From contig NZ_KI912613.1 of the NCBI RefSeq assembly GCF_000519325.1, positions 3,336,649-3,400,648 on the forward strand: a DNA stretch of 64,000 bases. The letters run 5' to 3'. The stretch comes from Patulibacter minatonensis DSM 18081. GTDB taxonomy: Bacteria > Actinomycetota > Thermoleophilia > Solirubrobacterales > Solirubrobacteraceae. The translations under genes and the position numbers were made by a program. The notes below the pieces were generated by a model. That model made no database searches, was not told where the DNA came from, and worked only from the letters and a program-made list of their open reading frames with translations. Of this stretch, positions 21,037 through 49,186 are shown piece by piece (within the stretch, counting starts at the first letter, position 1; every line of letters starts with the position of its first letter).

Positions 21037-21921
21037 ATGCAGGAGCACTCGACCGCCCCCGCGCCACCCGCGCCGGGCGCCGCCTCCGGGACGACGACCT
21101 CGCGCACCCTCCGGGTCGCGTTGATCGACACCGACAGCGGCTTCCTCCACGTCCTCGGCAAGCGCTTCGAGCGCGCCGGCTGGCAGCAGCGCACGCTCGC
21201 CAGCCCCGTGCCGGTCGAGGATCTCGTCGCCATGCGCCTCGCGGCCCTCGTGGTCGACGTCCAGGTGCTCGGCCCGCAGGCCTGGGAGTACCTCGAGAAG
21301 GTCGCCACCCGCATGCCGGGTCTCGGCATCATCGTCTGCACCGGCCAGTCGAGCGTCGCCCAGCGCGTCCGCGGCCTGCGCCTCGGCGCGGACGACTGGG
21401 TCTCGAAGCCCTGCCACCCCGACGAGCTGATGGCCCGCATCGAGGCCGTCGCCCGCCGCCGCCGTCGCGTCGAGCCGCAGGAGGAGCAGCGCCCCCGCGT
21501 CACGGGCGAGCTCGAGATCCGCGGCGACCAGTTCCAGGCCTTCGCGCGCGGCGTGTCCGCGGAGCTCACGAAGCGCGAGTTCGAGCTCATCGACCTGCTC
21601 GCCGCCGCCGAGGGCCGCGTCCTCGAGCGCGAGGAGATCTACCAGCGCGTCTGGGGCTACGCCATGGCCCGCGGCGATCGGTCGGTCGACGTCTTCGTGC
21701 GGAAGCTGCGCCAGAAGCTCGACAAGGCCTCCCCGGGCTGGCGCTACATCCACACGCACTTCGGTGTCGGCTACCGGTTCGCCCCGGAGCCCGAGACGGA
21801 TCTCGTCGCCGAGCCCGATCGCCCCGCCGGCCGCGTGCGCACCCGCGAGGAGCTCCTCGCGGAGGAGGGCACGTCCGTCAGCGGCGACGACCTCGAAGCC
21901 GCGTTCGCCGAGCGCGTCTGA
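21037..21921 (+). CDS. OmpR/PhoB-family response regulator (PhoP/PhoB-like)
   Basis: A 294-residue regulator with a ~24-residue disordered N-terminal tail, a receiver domain (~25-133) and a winged-helix domain (~145-245). The phosphoacceptor is Asp74 in ALVVDVQVLG, Thr102 and Lys124 (WVSKP) are in place, but the acidic pair at the strand-1 end reads I-D-T-D rather than D-D, a mild departure. DNA-binding features are TKREFELIDLLAAAEGRVLEREEIYQRVWG, RSVDVFVRKLRQKL and HTHFGVGYRF. Position after pst-phoU makes it the likely phosphate regulator that binds the PHO boxes; this is inference from context. No histidine kinase gene is adjacent. A C-terminal acidic tail of ~45 residues is unusual. Confidence 0.85.
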   Translation: MQEHSTAPAPPAPGAASGTTTSRTLRVALIDTDSGFLHVLGKRFERAGWQQRTLASPVPVEDLVAMRLAALVVDVQVLGPQAWEYLEKVATRMPGLGIIVCTGQSSVAQRVRGLRLGADDWVSKPCHPDELMARIEAVARRRRRVEPQEEQRPRVTGELEIRGDQFQAFARGVSAELTKREFELIDLLAAAEGRVLEREEIYQRVWGYAMARGDRSVDVFVRKLRQKLDKASPGWRYIHTHFGVGYRFAPEPETDLVAEPDRPAGRVRTREELLAEEGTSVSGDDLEAAFAERV

Positions 21922-21996: not shown

Positions 21997-22353
21997 GTGA
22001 CGACCAACGTCCGCACCGTCCTGATCATCGTCGCGATCTCCGCGGCGGTCTGGGCGATCCCCTCCGGCCAGGGCAGCGCCCAGGCGGTCGGCAACGCGCT
22101 GAGCGCGATCATCCTCGCGGCGATGGTGCTCTTCGGCGTCCGCGCGTACCGCGAGACCCGCGGCCGCGTCGAGACGCTGGGCGACGCCCATCGCGCGCTC
22201 CTCTACGCCGGTCTCGGCTGCTTCGTGGTGGCGATGGCCGCCCGGCCGTCGCTCACGAACACGGGCCCGGGCACGCTGCTCTTCATCGTCCTCATCGCGA
22301 TGCCGCTCGTGATGCTCTGGGCGGTCTGGCAGCGCTGGCGCGAAGTCGCCTGA
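21997..22353 (+). CDS. Small integral membrane protein, unknown
   Basis: A 118-residue protein with three or four hydrophobic helices (VLIIVAISAAVWAI near the start, ALSAIILAAMVLFGVRAY, ALLYAGLGCFVVAMAA, LLFIVLIAMPLVMLWAVW) and short charged loops. I do not recognise a family. The GTG start follows TACAGT by 6 nt, so it appears to be leaderless. It stands alone between the response regulator and the pseudopilin operon. Confidence 0.7.
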   Translation: MTTNVRTVLIIVAISAAVWAIPSGQGSAQAVGNALSAIILAAMVLFGVRAYRETRGRVETLGDAHRALLYAGLGCFVVAMAARPSLTNTGPGTLLFIVLIAMPLVMLWAVWQRWREVA

Positions 22354-22451: not shown

Positions 22452-22814
22452 ATGCCCCCGCCCGCACGGCCGATCCCGGCCCCGCACCCGCTCGCCGACG
22501 ACCGAGGCCAGGGGTCGGTGGAGCTCGTCGCGCTCCTCCCGTTGCTCGCGCTCCTGCTGCTGGCGCTCGTCCAGGCGACGCTCGCCGGGTACGCGGCGTG
22601 GTCGGCCGGGACGGCCGCGCGGGCCGGCGTCCGCGCCGCCGCCGTCGGGCGGGACCCCGTGGTGGCGGTCCGCCGTGCCGCGCCGATCGGCGGCCGTGAC
22701 GCGCGCATCCGCCAAGACGGGGACACCCTCCGGGTCCGGCTCCGCGTCCCGTCCGTCCTGCCGGTGTCGTTCGGCACGGTCGGCGGCAGCGCGCACCTGG
22801 AGTCGCAGCGATGA
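22452..22814 (+). CDS. TadE-like pseudopilin
   Basis: A 120-residue protein with the TadE layout: a charged Pro-rich leader, GQGSVELVALLPLLALLLLALVQ (a prepilin-like cleavage site with Glu in the fifth mature position, then one hydrophobic helix) and a small beta-rich domain ending LESQR. TadE proteins are minor pseudopilins of Flp/Tad pili and related secretion systems, cleaved by a TadV/CpaA peptidase. None of the other tad genes (tadA, B, C) is in the window. It is the first gene of a three-gene operon, overlapping the next by 4 nt. Confidence 0.8.
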   Translation: MPPPARPIPAPHPLADDRGQGSVELVALLPLLALLLLALVQATLAGYAAWSAGTAARAGVRAAAVGRDPVVAVRRAAPIGGRDARIRQDGDTLRVRLRVPSVLPVSFGTVGGSAHLESQR

Positions 22815-23200
22815 GCTCCGCGACGTCCACCGGACGGGCGACGGTCGGCCGCGTGCCGGCGCTCCGGGGCGGTGAGGCCGGCCAGGCGTCCGTCGAGGTG
22901 GTCGCGATCGCCCCGGTCGTGGGCCTGTTCGTCGTCGGGCTGGCGCTCGCGCTCCAGGCGCACGCGGCGGGCGAGGCCGCCGGCCTCGCGGCCCACGCGG
23001 CCGGGATCGCGGTGATGCAGGGGCGGGATCCGAAGGCGGCGGCCCGCGAGGCGGTGCCGGACGTCGACCGCGACCGCCTGCGCGTGACCGTCGACGGCGG
23101 CACCGTCCGGGTGTGGGTCCGGGCGTCCGGTCCACGGGCGCTGGTCGCACCGTTCGACGCCGATCGGCGCGTCGTCGCCCGCCCCGTGGGAGGCCGCTGA
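22811..23200 (+). CDS. Second TadE-like pseudopilin
   Basis: A 129-residue protein with a prepilin-like segment GQASVEVVAIAPVVGLFVVGLALALQAHAAGEAA, again with Glu at +5 of the expected cleavage, followed by a short strand-rich domain. It resembles the preceding TadE-like protein and overlaps it (ATGA), and its TGA shares one base with the ATG of the next gene. Tight overlaps suggest a co-translated assembly module. Confidence 0.78.
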   Translation: MSSATSTGRATVGRVPALRGGEAGQASVEVVAIAPVVGLFVVGLALALQAHAAGEAAGLAAHAAGIAVMQGRDPKAAAREAVPDVDRDRLRVTVDGGTVRVWVRASGPRALVAPFDADRRVVARPVGGR

Positions 23201-25164
23201 TGCGCGTGTTCGACGGCCTGCGCCGGACCCGGCTCGCGGCGGGTGACGGCCGCCAGGGTGGCACCCACCCCGGCCACGAGGACGAGGACGCGGTGGCCGG
23301 CGGCGTGGTCCGCGACGCGCTCGAGGACGACGCCTTCCCGGTCGTCGAGCACGCGGCCGAGGGCCTCGCGGTCGTCCTCGCGCCGGCGGACCGGGCGCTG
23401 CTCGCGGGAGCCGCCGTCGCGGCGGAGCGGGTGCAGCGCGGCGGTGCTCCCACCCTCGCGCTGTGGGACCCCCGGCGCACGTGGGACGCCGGGGAGTCGG
23501 CGACGAGCACCGGGCGCTCACGCCGCGCGGCGCTCGCGGCCGAGGCCTGTGGCGTCCGGGCGGTGGCCGTCGGGCGCACGGTCCGCGTCGTCCTGCCCGA
23601 CGACGACGTCGAGGCCGTCGCCGCCGCCGAGCGCCTCGAGCTCGTGGACGGCGTGGGGCCCGTGGTGCTCGTGATCGCAGGCCCGTGGGGCGCACCGTTC
23701 CTCGGGCCGATCGAGCGCGCCGGGCGCGTCCACGCCGACGGCGGCCCGGCGGCGCTCCGGGCGTGCTCCGCCACGCTGGCCCGGCACGGGGTGGACGTCG
23801 TCCCGGTGCCCACCGCCACGGGCCCGGTCGCACGGTCGCTGCTGCGGGCGGGGTGGGTCGGGCGCTCCCAGCTCTCCGGGAGGGGCGGGAACGACTCCGG
23901 GCAGTCGCTGCCCTTCGTCCTCGGCGCCCTGCTCGTGGCGATCGTCCTCGCCGGGGTCCTGGGGGCGGTGGCCTCCGCGATGAGCGGCCGCGAGGAGCGC
24001 CAGCGGGCCGTCGACGTCGCGGCGCTGGCGGCCGCGGACCGCATGCGCGCGGACTGGCCGGCGCGCGCGAGCCTCCCCGCCACGATGGGCATCGACCGCT
24101 ACCGCGACCGGGCCGCCGACGCCGCGAGGCGTGCCGCTCGGGCCAACGGGATCGACGACGTCGACGTCGACTTCCCCGACCCGGAGGCCGACGACGCCGG
24201 CCCGCTGACGGTCCGCGTCCGCTCGGCGGGGCGCGCGCACGTCGCCGGCGTCCCACTCGGCACCGGGGCCGAGGCGACGGCCGAGCTCTCGCCGCCGGCG
24301 CTCCCCGAGGCCGCGACGACGGGCGACGAGTACCGCGGGCCCCTGGCGAAGCGGGACGGCAAGCCGATGCGGCCCGACGTCGCGCTCGCCTACGACCGCA
24401 TGGACGCCGCCGCCACGCGCGCCGGGCATCCCCTGTCGGTGACCAGCGGCTACCGGTCCAACGCCGAGCAGGCGAAGCTGTTCGCCGCCCATCCCGACCC
24501 GAAGTGGGTGGCGCGCCCCGGGGCGAGCCTGCACCGGATGGGCACCGAGCTCGACCTCGGCCCGCCCGGGGCCTACGGCTGGCTGGCGGCCAACGCGACG
24601 CGGTTCGGCTTCAAGAAGCGGTACTCGTGGGAACCCTGGCACTTCGGGTTCGTCCGGGAGACCGGGTCCGCCCACGTCGCCGAGCAGGGACGCAACCCCG
24701 CGGCGCCCGCGCAGAAGGGGACGTTGCCGCCCTGGGTGCCGCAGCAGTACCGGGCGACGATCCTGGCGGCCAGCATCCGGTTCAAGGTGTCGGCGGCGCT
24801 CCTGGCCGCGCAGCTCAAGCAGGAGTCCGGGTTCGATCCGCGGGCGCGGTCCGGCGCGGGCGCTCAGGGCATCGCGCAGTTCATGCCGGGGACGGCCGCG
24901 GCGGTCGGGTTGCGCGACCCGTTCGACCCGGCGCAGGCGATCCCCGCGCAGGCGAGGCTCATGTCCACGCTGCTGCGGCGGTTCGGGTCGGTGCAGCTCG
25001 CCCTGGCGGCCTACAACGCGGGGGAGGGCAACGTCGCCCCGTGCCAGTGCGTCCCGCCGTTCCCCGAGACCCGGCACTACGTCGCGACGATCATCGCGCT
25101 GATGCGGGGCTACGACCCGACGGGCGGGCTGGCGGACGTCTTCACCATCCGCCTGGTGCGATGA
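23200..25164 (+). CDS. TadG-like anchor fused to VanY peptidase and SLT lytic transglycosylase
   Basis: A 654-residue multidomain protein. Residues 1-226 form an Ala/Val/Arg-rich domain I cannot assign. At ~233-262 a single hydrophobic helix follows GQS and is succeeded by GREERQRAVDVAALAAAD, the pattern of TadG-like pseudopilins. Residues ~380-485 match D-Ala-D-Ala carboxypeptidase VanY/LAS enzymes: SGYRS (416-420), SLHRMGTELD with zinc ligands His445 and Asp452, and EPWHFGF with His481. Residues ~515-625 are an SLT domain: QESGF with catalytic Glu542, GIAQFMPGT (557-565) and AYNAGEG (604-610). The protein would therefore cut both peptide and glycan parts of peptidoglycan from a pilus-like membrane anchor, perhaps to open the wall for a Tad-type apparatus. 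The pairing with two TadE-like genes supports this. The N-terminal domain is unexplained. Confidence 0.85.
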   Translation: MRVFDGLRRTRLAAGDGRQGGTHPGHEDEDAVAGGVVRDALEDDAFPVVEHAAEGLAVVLAPADRALLAGAAVAAERVQRGGAPTLALWDPRRTWDAGESATSTGRSRRAALAAEACGVRAVAVGRTVRVVLPDDDVEAVAAAERLELVDGVGPVVLVIAGPWGAPFLGPIERAGRVHADGGPAALRACSATLARHGVDVVPVPTATGPVARSLLRAGWVGRSQLSGRGGNDSGQSLPFVLGALLVAIVLAGVLGAVASAMSGREERQRAVDVAALAAADRMRADWPARASLPATMGIDRYRDRAADAARRAARANGIDDVDVDFPDPEADDAGPLTVRVRSAGRAHVAGVPLGTGAEATAELSPPALPEAATTGDEYRGPLAKRDGKPMRPDVALAYDRMDAAATRAGHPLSVTSGYRSNAEQAKLFAAHPDPKWVARPGASLHRMGTELDLGPPGAYGWLAANATRFGFKKRYSWEPWHFGFVRETGSAHVAEQGRNPAAPAQKGTLPPWVPQQYRATILAASIRFKVSAALLAAQLKQESGFDPRARSGAGAQGIAQFMPGTAAAVGLRDPFDPAQAIPAQARLMSTLLRRFGSVQLALAAYNAGEGNVAPCQCVPPFPETRHYVATIIALMRGYDPTGGLADVFTIRLVR

Positions 25165-46426: not shown

Positions 46427-46735
46427 CTACGGAGACGCAAAGACGTCGTGATCGCCAATGCGGCGCCACCGAATTCCTTGAGTGTCGCCGATGGTTACCC
46501 ACTCCCAGGTCGCACGCCCGTCTGGGTCGTCCATGCTCCAAGTGACTTCCCAGACGCCCTCTGCGCCTTTCACCGGTTTGACCCGCATGCCGTTCGGCCA
46601 TGGAGCCGTTTCGCCGGCGGCAGCGCGCTCGGCCGCAGCGTTGAAGCGGGGGACGAGCTTGCGGAACTTCGCCTGGTGCTGCTTTGAGAGCCGCTTGTAG
46701 TCGCGGTCGAACGCCGGGGTGGTCTGGAACTTCAC
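46427..46735 (-). CDS. RelE/ParE-superfamily toxin
   Basis: A 102-residue basic protein with the RelE/ParE fold pattern: KFQTTPAFDRDYKRLSKQHQAKFRKLVPRF at the N-terminus, a central VWEVTWSM, and C-terminal IRWRRIGDHDVF. RelE-type relatives cut ribosome-bound mRNA, ParE-type ones poison gyrase; which applies is not clear. The GTG start (46733-46735) overlaps the antitoxin stop (GTGA), so the toxin is made only after the antitoxin. It points towards the 3' end of hamB. Confidence 0.8.
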   Translation of the reverse strand: MKFQTTPAFDRDYKRLSKQHQAKFRKLVPRFNAAAERAAAGETAPWPNGMRVKPVKGAEGVWEVTWSMDDPDGRATWEWVTIGDTQGIRWRRIGDHDVFASP

Positions 46736-47025
46736 TCGTCCGCGAGGGTGTCGAGGTGCGCAGCGAAGTCGTCCGCAGAGTCGTGCGTCGTGACCTCGCC
46801 GGCAGCGACGTGGGCGTCGACCTCCCGCTCGCGGGTCTGCCAGCGCTCGGTCCAGAACCACTGCTGATCCGCGGCGACCGGGAGGTGGGGGCGGAGCTCG
46901 ATCACGCCGTCCCGTTCGATGACCTCGACCTGGGCCCCCGGCTCGTCGAGGTGATACCGGCGGCGGACGTCGGCCGGCAGCGCGAGAGTTCCGCGGCTCT
47001 GCACGGTGACGAAGGTGGAAGCCAT
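46732..47025 (-). CDS. AbrB/SpoVT-type antitoxin
   Basis: A 97-residue protein. The N-terminal swapped-hairpin AbrB domain is clear (VTVQSRGTLALPADVRRRYHLDEPGAQVEVIERDGVIELRPHL); the acidic C-terminal half (EREVDAHVAAGEVTTHDSADDF) would wrap the toxin. It is the upstream partner of the RelE/ParE-like toxin and probably represses the pair. It may act to stabilise the island in the host. Confidence 0.85.
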   Translation of the reverse strand: MASTFVTVQSRGTLALPADVRRRYHLDEPGAQVEVIERDGVIELRPHLPVAADQQWFWTERWQTREREVDAHVAAGEVTTHDSADDFAAHLDTLADE

Positions 47026-47150
47026 TCATCGAGGATAGGCGGGTACGGCAACGCTGTAAAGCAGCAATGCGGCTTAATGGCTCCAGGAATGCGAGTCTAG
47101 GCCGGTGCCGCGGGGAAGCAGCGATTTCCCTCTTCGACCGTGTGCGTTGC

Positions 47151-47170
47151 TGTATATACATGGATATATT
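47151..47170 (+). promoter_or_regulatory. AT-rich promoter/operator of the second AbrB-like gene
   Basis: TGTATATACA at 47151-47160 is a perfect palindrome, and TATATT at 47165-47170 is a strong -10 located 6 nt before the GTG at 47177, fitting a leaderless transcript. AbrB-type proteins bind such AT-rich palindromes, so autoregulation is plausible. The stretch stands out in this GC-rich region. Confidence 0.6.
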
Positions 47171-47176
47171 GGCCCC

Positions 47177-47416
47177 GTGAACCTCGTCAAGGTCCGCCGC
47201 GTCGGCAACAGCAACGTCATCTCGCTCCCGCGGGCTCTCGAGGCAGGTGGCTTCGAGCCGGGGGTGTCGGTCCTCATCGAGGACCTCGGGAACGGTGAGC
47301 TGCGCGTCCTTCTCAGTGACCAGGTTCGGGAACGCATCGGGGACGTCGGTCGGCGCATCGTCGAGGAGCGCGGTCACGCGCTTCGCGAACTCGCGGGTCA
47401 CGATCGCGACGAGTAG
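47177..47416 (+). CDS. AbrB/MazE-like DNA-binding protein without a partner
   Basis: A 79-residue protein with a swapped-hairpin domain (VKVRRVGNSNVISLPRALEAGGFEPGVSVLIEDLGNGELRVLL) and an alpha-helical tail. It resembles a MazE/AbrB antitoxin, but no toxin gene follows; the next 172 nt hold repeats. It could be a lone regulator of island functions, or the remnant of a second toxin-antitoxin pair. Confidence 0.75.
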   Translation: MNLVKVRRVGNSNVISLPRALEAGGFEPGVSVLIEDLGNGELRVLLSDQVRERIGDVGRRIVEERGHALRELAGHDRDE

Positions 47417-47448
47417 GCGCTGGGCCCCTCCGTGACTCGAGGAGTCGG

Positions 47449-47553
47449 GTAGTCACTTGTGACCACCTCTCGAGCGCGCCACGCTCGTGGTGAGCACAAG
47501 CGACCACTCCGTCGCCGCCGCCCTGTCATGCCGTGGTGGGCGCAAGTGCCCAC
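47449..47553. repeat. Three imperfect inverted repeats upstream of the excisionase gene
   Basis: A 21-bp element of form GTGGT-n-CACAAG-n-CCAC occurs at 47487-47507 and 47533-47553, and a shorter copy in opposite orientation at 47449-47466. Centres are about 40 and 46 bp apart, near multiples of a helical turn. They are the only notable content of the gap between the AbrB-like and excisionase-like genes and may be binding sites for the excisionase-like protein or for a regulator of recombination. Confidence 0.6.
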
Positions 47554-47588
47554 TTCCGCCACGCACCTGACGACGGTAGGACTGCTCC

Positions 47589-47813
47589 ATGCGAACGAAC
47601 CGCGGGGGAGAGGGGGCGCCGGTCCTGCGGCGGAGGTCGCTCACCCGCGAGGACGTGCTGACCGCCGCCGAGGTCGGCGAGCTGCTCAGGCTGCCGAAGT
47701 CGACCGTCTACGAGCTGGCGCGGCGCGGGGTGTTGCCGTCGGCGCGGCTTGGGCGGACGCTGCGGTTCGTCCGGGCTGACATCGAGCGGTGCGTGCGCGG
47801 GTCCCGCGGTTAG
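47589..47813 (+). CDS. Excisionase-like helix-turn-helix protein
   Basis: A 74-residue protein with a MerR/HTH_17-type DNA-binding domain: LTAAEVGELLRLPKSTVYELARRGVLPSARLGRTLRFVRADIE. Such proteins beside tyrosine integrases are usually recombination directionality factors (Xis) or small regulators. Its stop overlaps the 3' end of the convergent integrase gene by 4 nt. Confidence 0.8.
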   Translation: MRTNRGGEGAPVLRRRSLTREDVLTAAEVGELLRLPKSTVYELARRGVLPSARLGRTLRFVRADIERCVRGSRG

Positions 47814-49186
47814 TCGTCGCCGGCCGGCGGCCTGACGTGGTCGGGCGCCGGGAGCTCGCCGAAGGCCGCGTTGACCGCCGCGACCGCGGCGGCGTCGATC
47901 TTCGAGTGCAGGTAGCGGTTCGTCGTCTCGATCTTCGCGTGGCCGAGGATGTCGCGGACCGAGACCAGCGGCATCGAGCGGGCCATGACCGAGCCGGCCG
48001 CGTGGCGCAGGCCGTGGAGCTTCACATCGCGGAGGCCTGCGGCGTCGCGGGCGCGCTTGTAGCGGGAGCGCATGGCCGAGCCGTCGAGGCGGCGGCCCAG
48101 GCGGTTGACGAAGACGTAGTCGTCCGGGCCCATGAAGTCCTCGCGGGCGCCGACCCGGGCCAGGGCCCTCGTGGCGGGGCGGGGGACCGGGACCTCGCGG
48201 GCGCGTCGTGATTTTGTGCTCGTCTCCTCGCCGGCCGACACGTTGCGGCTGACCGTGAGGATCGCGCCCGACATGTCGGCGAGGAACACGACGTCGTCCC
48301 AGCGCAGCGCGAGGCCCTCGGAGAGCCGCAGGCCCGAGAAGAAGAGGAGGCGGAAGAAGTCCGCGTCGCGCTGATCTTCGGCCCGGCGGGCCTCGAGCTC
48401 TGCCTCCTGGTGCTCGACCGGGACGCCGCGGAAGGTCCGGATCCCGCGGTGCAGCCCCTGCTCGCAGGCGCGCGCGAGGGCCTCGACCTCCTCGTACTCG
48501 TAGAAGTCCAGACGGGCCGCCGGCGGCTCGCGGCGGCGCGACGTGGCGGCCACCGGGTTCTTCTCGAGCTCGTAGGTGTCGGCCCGCATCGCGTAGGCGA
48601 AGATCGCGTGCAGCGTCTGGCGGTGGCGGTTGACGTTGCGCCCGGAGAGCCCCGCCGCGTCGAGCGCCGACAGCCATCGGGCGACTTCGCGCGGCGTCAC
48701 GTCCTGCACCGGTCGGTCGCCGAAGGCGCGCATCAGGCGGCCCTCGCAGGTCCCCTGGCCGCGCCGGTGCTTCGTCCCGGGCTCGGCAAGCATCGAGCGT
48801 TGGTTCGCGAGCGTCGAGGGCTTTGCGCCCTCAACTGTCCTCAGGTGGGTGAGCCACTCGCCGGCCAGGCGCCGGACCGTCAGCGTCGCGTCGATCGCCT
48901 CGCGCGCCCTGCGGGCGGCCGCCTGGTCCTCGACCTCCGTGACCTGCGCGAGGGCCGCGAGGTAGGCCGTGCGCTCGTCGAGCCAGCCGTCCGGCGTGCG
49001 TCCGCGGCGCTTGTGCCAGCTGCCGTCCCTATCGCGTTCGATCCAGGCCGGACCGAGTCGGCGTTTCACCTGCCGGCCCTCGCTCCGCCACTTCGCCTCG
49101 AAGAACGGCGTGCCGTCCTTTGCGACCCGGACGACGACGGCCGGCGCGGGGGCGGTCGGCGCGGTCGTGGTGCTCGAACTGGGCAT
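47810..49186 (-). CDS. int: Tyrosine-type site-specific integrase
   Basis: A 458-residue recombinase. An N-terminal arm-binding domain (KDGTPFFEAKWRSEGRQVKRRLG) precedes the SAM-like core-binding domain (TVRRLAGEWLTHL) and the catalytic domain. The catalytic residues are all visible: Arg287 in FSGLRLSEGLALRW, His391-x-x-Arg394 in HGLRHAAGS, His416 in LGHAKIETTNRYLH and nucleophile Tyr425. The start lies 217 nt from the right attachment repeat. It should integrate the island at tRNA-Gly(CCC) and excise it with the excisionase. It looks intact. Confidence 0.95.
   Translation of the reverse strand: MPSSSTTTAPTAPAPAVVVRVAKDGTPFFEAKWRSEGRQVKRRLGPAWIERDRDGSWHKRRGRTPDGWLDERTAYLAALAQVTEVEDQAAARRAREAIDATLTVRRLAGEWLTHLRTVEGAKPSTLANQRSMLAEPGTKHRRGQGTCEGRLMRAFGDRPVQDVTPREVARWLSALDAAGLSGRNVNRHRQTLHAIFAYAMRADTYELEKNPVAATSRRREPPAARLDFYEYEEVEALARACEQGLHRGIRTFRGVPVEHQEAELEARRAEDQRDADFFRLLFFSGLRLSEGLALRWDDVVFLADMSGAILTVSRNVSAGEETSTKSRRAREVPVPRPATRALARVGAREDFMGPDDYVFVNRLGRRLDGSAMRSRYKRARDAAGLRDVKLHGLRHAAGSVMARSMPLVSVRDILGHAKIETTNRYLHSKIDAAAVAAVNAAFGELPAPDHVRPPAGDD

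Follow-up and report, generated by a model that had tools for sequence, protein, structure and literature searches.

Introduction

The minor pilins TadE, TadF and TadG have been modelled as the tip of the Tad (type IVc) pilus with the C-terminal domain of TadG at the extremity, and the tips of the Tad-like Kil pilus are needed for pilus function (PMC12075869). Both tips, TadE/TadF/TadG and KilL/M/N of Myxococcus, combine two small prepilins with a large TadG-type subunit that has a modular C-terminus. Here we describe a three-gene module of the same composition in Patulibacter minatonensis DSM 18081 (genome of 5.52 Mb, one contig). It lies in a stretch of 64,000 nucleotides of contig NZ_KI912613.1 (G000:C1:3336649-3400648), called the window below, and its third gene encodes a TadG-type pilin fused to two peptidoglycan hydrolases. 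We consider it probable (roughly 0.6) that this module codes for the minor-pilin tip (TadE-TadE-TadG) of a scattered Tad pilus with a bifunctional, peptidoglycan-cutting head that serves exit through the cell's own wall.

Actinobacterial Tad genes may be situated at distant cooperating loci, as in Micrococcus luteus, where two loci serve one pilus (PMC4322843), and Kil is a second case of split Tad-like loci (PMC8460266). In P. minatonensis the Tad motor genes are likewise present and the loci are scattered. The head, however, consists of two peptidoglycan hydrolases, whereas the Kil tip domains have no assigned fold. In the Rv3654c-Rv3660c Tad locus (TIGR03819/TIGR03816/DUF4244) the genes, TadZ included, stand in one cluster and TadG is without a hydrolase; the second TadE-like protein and the Flp-like pilin described below weakly resemble TIGR03816 and DUF4244, respectively.

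Transport machines with a wall hydrolase of their own, sometimes fused to a structural part, are exemplified by FlgJ, VirB1/CwlT and the tape-measure/injection transglycosylases of phages (T7 gp16, 9b45). These are flagellar, conjugation and phage parts, whereas here the enzymes are carried by a type IV filament pilin. In the monoderm Streptococcus sanguinis the separate wall hydrolase LytF promotes extrusion of the competence pilus (PMC13192262); LytF is a standalone enzyme and not a pilin, in contrast to the pilin-fused wall cutter of the present module. A 2025 paper on the structure of RcpC states that Tad pili have no known hydrolase or transglycosylase and supposes recruitment from other processes (PMC12307814). 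Our literature search for TadG with a transglycosylase, pilus tips with hydrolases and Tad systems of Solirubrobacterales found no prior report. New is thus a putative Tad cutter that is encoded as the C-terminal head of TadG, joins the two kinds of cleavage in a single chain and shows unbroken conservation.

The fusion protein and its flanking prepilins

The three genes (22452-22814, 22811-23200 and 23200-25164) are all on the forward strand with mutual overlaps of 1-4 bases, the start of the fusion gene overlapping the stop of the upstream TadE-like gene by 1 base (TGATG). As the original prediction had stated, a TadG-type helix, a VanY-type peptidase and an SLT transglycosylase are contained in a single frame of 654 amino acids, and Pfam matches were obtained for all three: Tad (PF13400) with 24.6 bits versus a cut-off of 22.3 (residues 234-280), VanY (PF02557) with an E-value of 2e-14 (residues 390-485) and SLT (PF01464) with an E-value of 5e-20 (residues 521-613). 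The PF13400 match is the sole one in the whole genome. In an alignment of 74 sequences G234 of the TadG part is conserved and the glutamate at +5 is absent. The AlphaFold2 model of the 654 residues (mean predicted local distance difference test, pLDDT, 69.5) shows a 55-residue helix (236-290) that leads into a small beta domain (322-364), so that the TadG part is predicted to have a pilin-like body. The two enzyme folds follow this body, and Foldseek confirmed Slt and VanY/LdcB folds in the model.

The active-site residues were found to be unmutated. In the VanY part the zinc ligands H445, D452 and H481 and the catalytic E478 are present, with the motifs SxHxxGxxxD and ExWH, and upon alignment to the VanY-B structures 5hnm and 6a6a the catalytic residues coincide. 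The same holds for the SLT part aligned to Slt of Pseudomonas aeruginosa (5ohu). The peptidase residues R419, S443, H445, D452, E478, W480 and H481 as well as the transglycosylase residues E542, S543, G554 and Q560 are invariant in 74/74 aligned sequences, and the SLT family 1 motifs (E542-S543, GIAQ, YN) occur in at least 73 of the 74. Judged from these residues, both parts are apparently intact wall hydrolases.

The similarity of the flanking genes to TadE/G, which had also been proposed, was borne out. The product of gene 22452 matches TadE (PF07811) with 26.2 bits versus a cut-off of 22.9. Gene 22811 gives 18.8 bits with TIGR03816, which is sub-threshold; in relatives it falls into the same cluster as TadE. 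Both proteins contain the prepilin motif, the G/xxxxE site of the second being textbook-like.

Table 1. Features of the tip module and of its upstream neighbours (positions in the window)
Feature	Position	Strand	Basis
Fusion protein, SIMIBI-like domain + TadG pilin + VanY/M15 + SLT, 654 aa (amino acids)	23200..25164	+	one open frame
P-loop-less SIMIBI-fold domain (by model), residues 45-225	23332..23874	+	hidden Markov model search of relatives; AlphaFold2; Foldseek/VIA
TadG-type pilin part, residues 234-364	23899..24291	+	PF13400; AlphaFold2 model; alignment column counts
VanY/M15B zinc peptidase domain, residues 383-493	24346..24678	+	PF02557; PDB 5hnm/6a6a/4mph; conservation
SLT lytic transglycosylase domain, residues 515-638, catalytic E542	24742..25113	+	PF01464; PDB 5ohu, phage tape-measure 9b45
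TadE-type minor prepilin 1, 120 aa, site G19/QGSVE, Glu +5	22452..22814	+	PF07811, motif
TadE-like minor prepilin 2, 129 aa, site G24/QASVE, Glu +5	22811..23200	+	sub-threshold TIGR03816, motif, clustering
118-aa membrane protein TM118	21997..22353	+	syntenic neighbour, outside module
OmpR-type response regulator, downstream of phoU, context only	21037..21921	+	PF00072+PF00486, synteny

Distribution of the module

In a phylum-wide draw of 396 genomes full-length relatives were found only within Thermoleophilia. The fusion is present in 105/229 Thermoleophilia genomes of at least 90% completeness, a count weakened by the draft state of genomes. The bearing families are four of the order (f1-f4) and one outside it (f5); the named relatives belong to Solirubrobacterales, e.g., Conexibacter arvalis, Solirubrobacter soli and S. 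deserti. The carriers are soil and freshwater actinobacteria.

The neighbourhood with uvrC downstream of the fusion is near-constant across Thermoleophilia, and in many genomes the gene order is pst-phoU-response regulator-TM118-TadE-TadE-(N-domain)-TadG/VanY/SLT-uvrC. Genes in relatives were called with a simple GC-frame caller, so that starts and the calls of small genes may be inaccurate. In one genome (G024) the row phoU-response regulator-TM118-uvrC is intact and the module is cleanly absent, and in three others (G008, G032 and G021) TM118 adjoins uvrC.

A motor locus elsewhere in the genome

No tadA, tadB or tadC is present within the 64-kb window, in agreement with the original prediction. 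They do occur elsewhere in the genome: a row response regulator-histidine kinase-RcpC/CpaB-TadA-TadB-TadC lies at 3.686-3.691 Mb beside mraZ/mraW, 350 kb from the module. It contains a T2SSE protein and two T2SSF proteins (G000:C1:3688281-3691168) with RcpC/CpaB immediately before them, and its TadA is nearest to TIGR03819, below the cut-off of that family.

This locus, termed type 1, consists of motor genes only; Flp, TadE and TadG are missing, and in families f1-f4 TadZ as well. The type-2 tad loci of other class members have their own Flp, TadE, TadG and TadZ. In one genome (G541, L192:43-19384) at most about 15 kb separate a conventional type-2 locus from a type-1 locus; Flp, TadE and TadG are confined to the former.

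Because the E-value alone failed to separate the TadA types cleanly, a TadA tree was built. It divides into 40 type-1 and 21 type-2 rows (split support 97/89); the rows were hand-picked and the division was drawn after seeing the loci, so the tree illustrates the pairing and is not a random sample. The fusion is present in 38/40 type-1 TadA genomes and absent from the type-2-only genomes sampled. The exceptions are a genome in which TadE-TadE runs into the contig end (G055) and a 79%-complete draft (G033).

Among 61 relatives, fusion and type-1 TadA occur together in 47, 4 and 3 are discordant and 7 have neither (Fisher p 7e-5, without phylogenetic correction). The pairing is also seen within genera: in genus g12 two genomes have both (G544, G546) and two have neither (G018, G545), and in genus g21 one has both (G027) and one neither (G554). 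Genomes cleanly without the module are also without type-1 TadA; TM118 remains in them. An independent system, as the original prediction had considered, finds no support in view of this joint absence and of the presence of the motor locus and a Flp-like prepilin in the same genome. What holds of that proposal is that, in a row of three pseudopilin genes, one subunit of the TadG type carries two apparently intact wall hydrolases of its own.

A type IVa pilus was also considered as the motor and is disfavoured. Module-free genomes show other secretion-ATPase matches (E ~1e-11), which we take to be of the PilB/PilT type, and in the same search several module-bearing genomes show TadA alone.

Candidate major pilin and prepilin peptidase

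A search of the P. minatonensis genome with PF04964 (Flp/Fap) for the major pilin gave nothing significant. By reading the loci of weak matches to a class-specific Flp profile, we found a family of Flp-like prepilins of 67-104 amino acids (GQGTVEYVALILLVALVMAGVV...), which lies below the Pfam and NCBIfam cut-offs. The member in this genome (G000:C1:5165050-5165337) comprises 95 amino acids (GQGTVEYVALAM...) and reaches 17.6 of 27 bits with DUF4244, below the Pfam cut-offs. Members occur in 29 further genomes, often beside rdgB, and all 30 carriers have the module, when G055 is counted by its contig-end TadEs. In the module-free genome G032 the one weak match to the Flp profile that was read is not of this family. 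Flp-like prepilins of the GQGTVEYVALILLVALVMAGVV type were seen outside any tad cluster at L229:1051-1338 (- strand), with homologues at L233-L250, L255, L260 and L267. One PF01478 gene (G000:C1:3824606) is a candidate for the peptidase processing these prepilins.

The N-terminal domain

The original prediction had left the N-terminal domain without an assignment. The first 230 residues have no Pfam match, and Pfam and PDB sequence searches with the domain gave nothing usable. With its AlphaFold2 model (pLDDT 79), Foldseek returned the nitrogenase Fe protein (NifH) and Wzc (probability mostly 0.8-0.97, E ~0.01-0.08) and VIA-align returned Ffh/FtsY, ParF and ParA (Z 9-10.6); MipZ is also among the fold matches. 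The Walker A P-loop (deviant KGGxGK) was not found in the aligned sequences of the domain. On the basis of the model it can be placed as SIMIBI-like by fold (similar to NifH, ParA and the signal recognition particle) without a P-loop, and a cytoplasmic location is expected.

In most genera the domain is encoded by its own gene between TadE2 and TadG, and in this genus it is fused to TadG. Therefore, TadG-VanY-SLT is the widespread unit, and only this genus has the fusion of all four parts. At five loci (L047, L049, L051, L055 and L057) the domain is fused before TadE2, directly preceding the GQASVE-type prepilin site.

A relationship to TadZ was considered. An hhalign comparison of the domain and TadZ is colinear over 141 columns with a probability of 5.6%. 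In two type-2-like tad loci (L219:6126-7727 and L221:4016-5515) a P-loop TadZ/CpaE bears a C-terminal TadE-type prepilin helix (EAGQASVEMAG... and EAGQVTAELVG..., respectively), which suggests that TadZ is coupled directly to minor pilins. The tad loci of family f5 (L200-L202) have kept TadZ, and the Miltoncostaeales-type tip loci L083 and L086 contain no such domain between TadE and TadG. From these fusions and this distribution we infer that the domain is probably a degenerate stand-in for TadZ.

Proposed function

The Tad genes would then be spread over at least three chromosomal loci, with the tip before uvrC, the motor by mraZ/mraW and the Flp-like pilin elsewhere. In the proposed mechanism the SIMIBI-fold domain would couple the tip subunits to the motor, and TadE1, TadE2 and TadG would prime the filament. 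TadG, being without Glu +5, would cap it; the tip pseudopilin GspK is likewise without this residue. At the leading end of the growing filament the VanY/M15 peptidase would cut stem peptides and the lytic transglycosylase glycan strands. Because of its position, the head could make a local passage for the extending filament through the thick wall of the monoderm cell. Exit through the cell's own thick wall would be the most likely purpose of the cutting head.

If so, the passage of Tad pili through peptidoglycan, a step without a reported enzyme, would be explained in a large part of the class. TadG would gain a predicted activity, and the question of exit becomes directly testable. A three-locus, scattered Tad system of this kind would be missed by cluster-based annotation.

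Several points weigh against this proposal. First, 12/105 module-bearing genomes (at least 90% complete, mostly drafts) have no TadA match. Second, on the UvrC tree 5 changes are needed on the best tree and only 1 is forced by well-supported branches, so the co-occurrence is not phylogenetically independent. Third, the Flp profile is weak (background E 0.001-0.01) and the distribution of the Flp-like family is incompletely known. Finally, the VanY domain may shorten peptides and leave the cross-links uncut.

We considered several alternatives. The Tad machine could be a secretion or DNA-uptake (competence) device in which the wall is cleared by the head to let DNA or protein pass and not for adhesion. 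Natural transformation of M. luteus requires both of the distant tad loci together (PMC4322843), and in many genomes the module adjoins pst-phoU and a response regulator. This alternative, which we regard as rather unlikely, is compatible with an exit function and differs from it only in purpose.

The same tip could also be a weapon with which the head opens a neighbour's wall. Kil, which is Tad-like with split loci and a tip ending in large KilN/TadG domains, offers a precedent, as prey peptidoglycan is lost at the Kil contact site (PMC8460266, PMC12075869), and the cutting of both peptide and glycan bonds would suit an attack. However, the module contains no recognisable immunity gene, and no partner resembling T3SS* was seen, although no search was aimed at one. 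The enzymes would first meet the own wall, and the head hardly varies within the class, in contrast to the prey-dependent Kil tips. An attack function thus appears improbable.

Somewhat less probable still is that the Tad helix is a mere membrane anchor and that the protein, without any role in a pilus, remodels the wall like other such enzymes (in growth, division or a sporulation-like process). A membrane-anchored hydrolase could indeed work without any filament, and the tadABC locus adjoins the division and wall cluster mraZ/mraW. But the two TadE prepilins are nearly always adjacent, the N-domain is fused to pilin helices, and the module is cleanly absent as a unit together with type-1 TadA; whole genera would not be expected to lack a housekeeping enzyme of the wall.

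A more far-reaching variant, which we regard as a long shot, would make the TadZ-derived SIMIBI domain a folded "leader peptide" that delivers the subunits of the tip to TadABC and is removed by the prepilin peptidase, the head being a wall drill for neighbours as well as for the own wall. That the fusion is an assembly join, a frameshift or a pseudogene can practically be dismissed, because the catalytic residues are identical in all 74 sequences, the frame is single and open, and the architecture recurs in many genomes, including five congeneric ones with the same N-domain+TadG+VanY+SLT protein (65-78% identity).

Other features of the window

TM118 is kept in 56/61 relatives, mostly adjoining the tip module or uvrC, and is without a Pfam family. 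It was rejected as a module member, as it persists in genomes without the module. Further downstream, at 46427-49186, integrase-like, small helix-turn-helix/excisionase-like, two AbrB-like and one RelE-like gene stand in a row, as judged from the translations by eye; this region resembles the margin of an integrated element.
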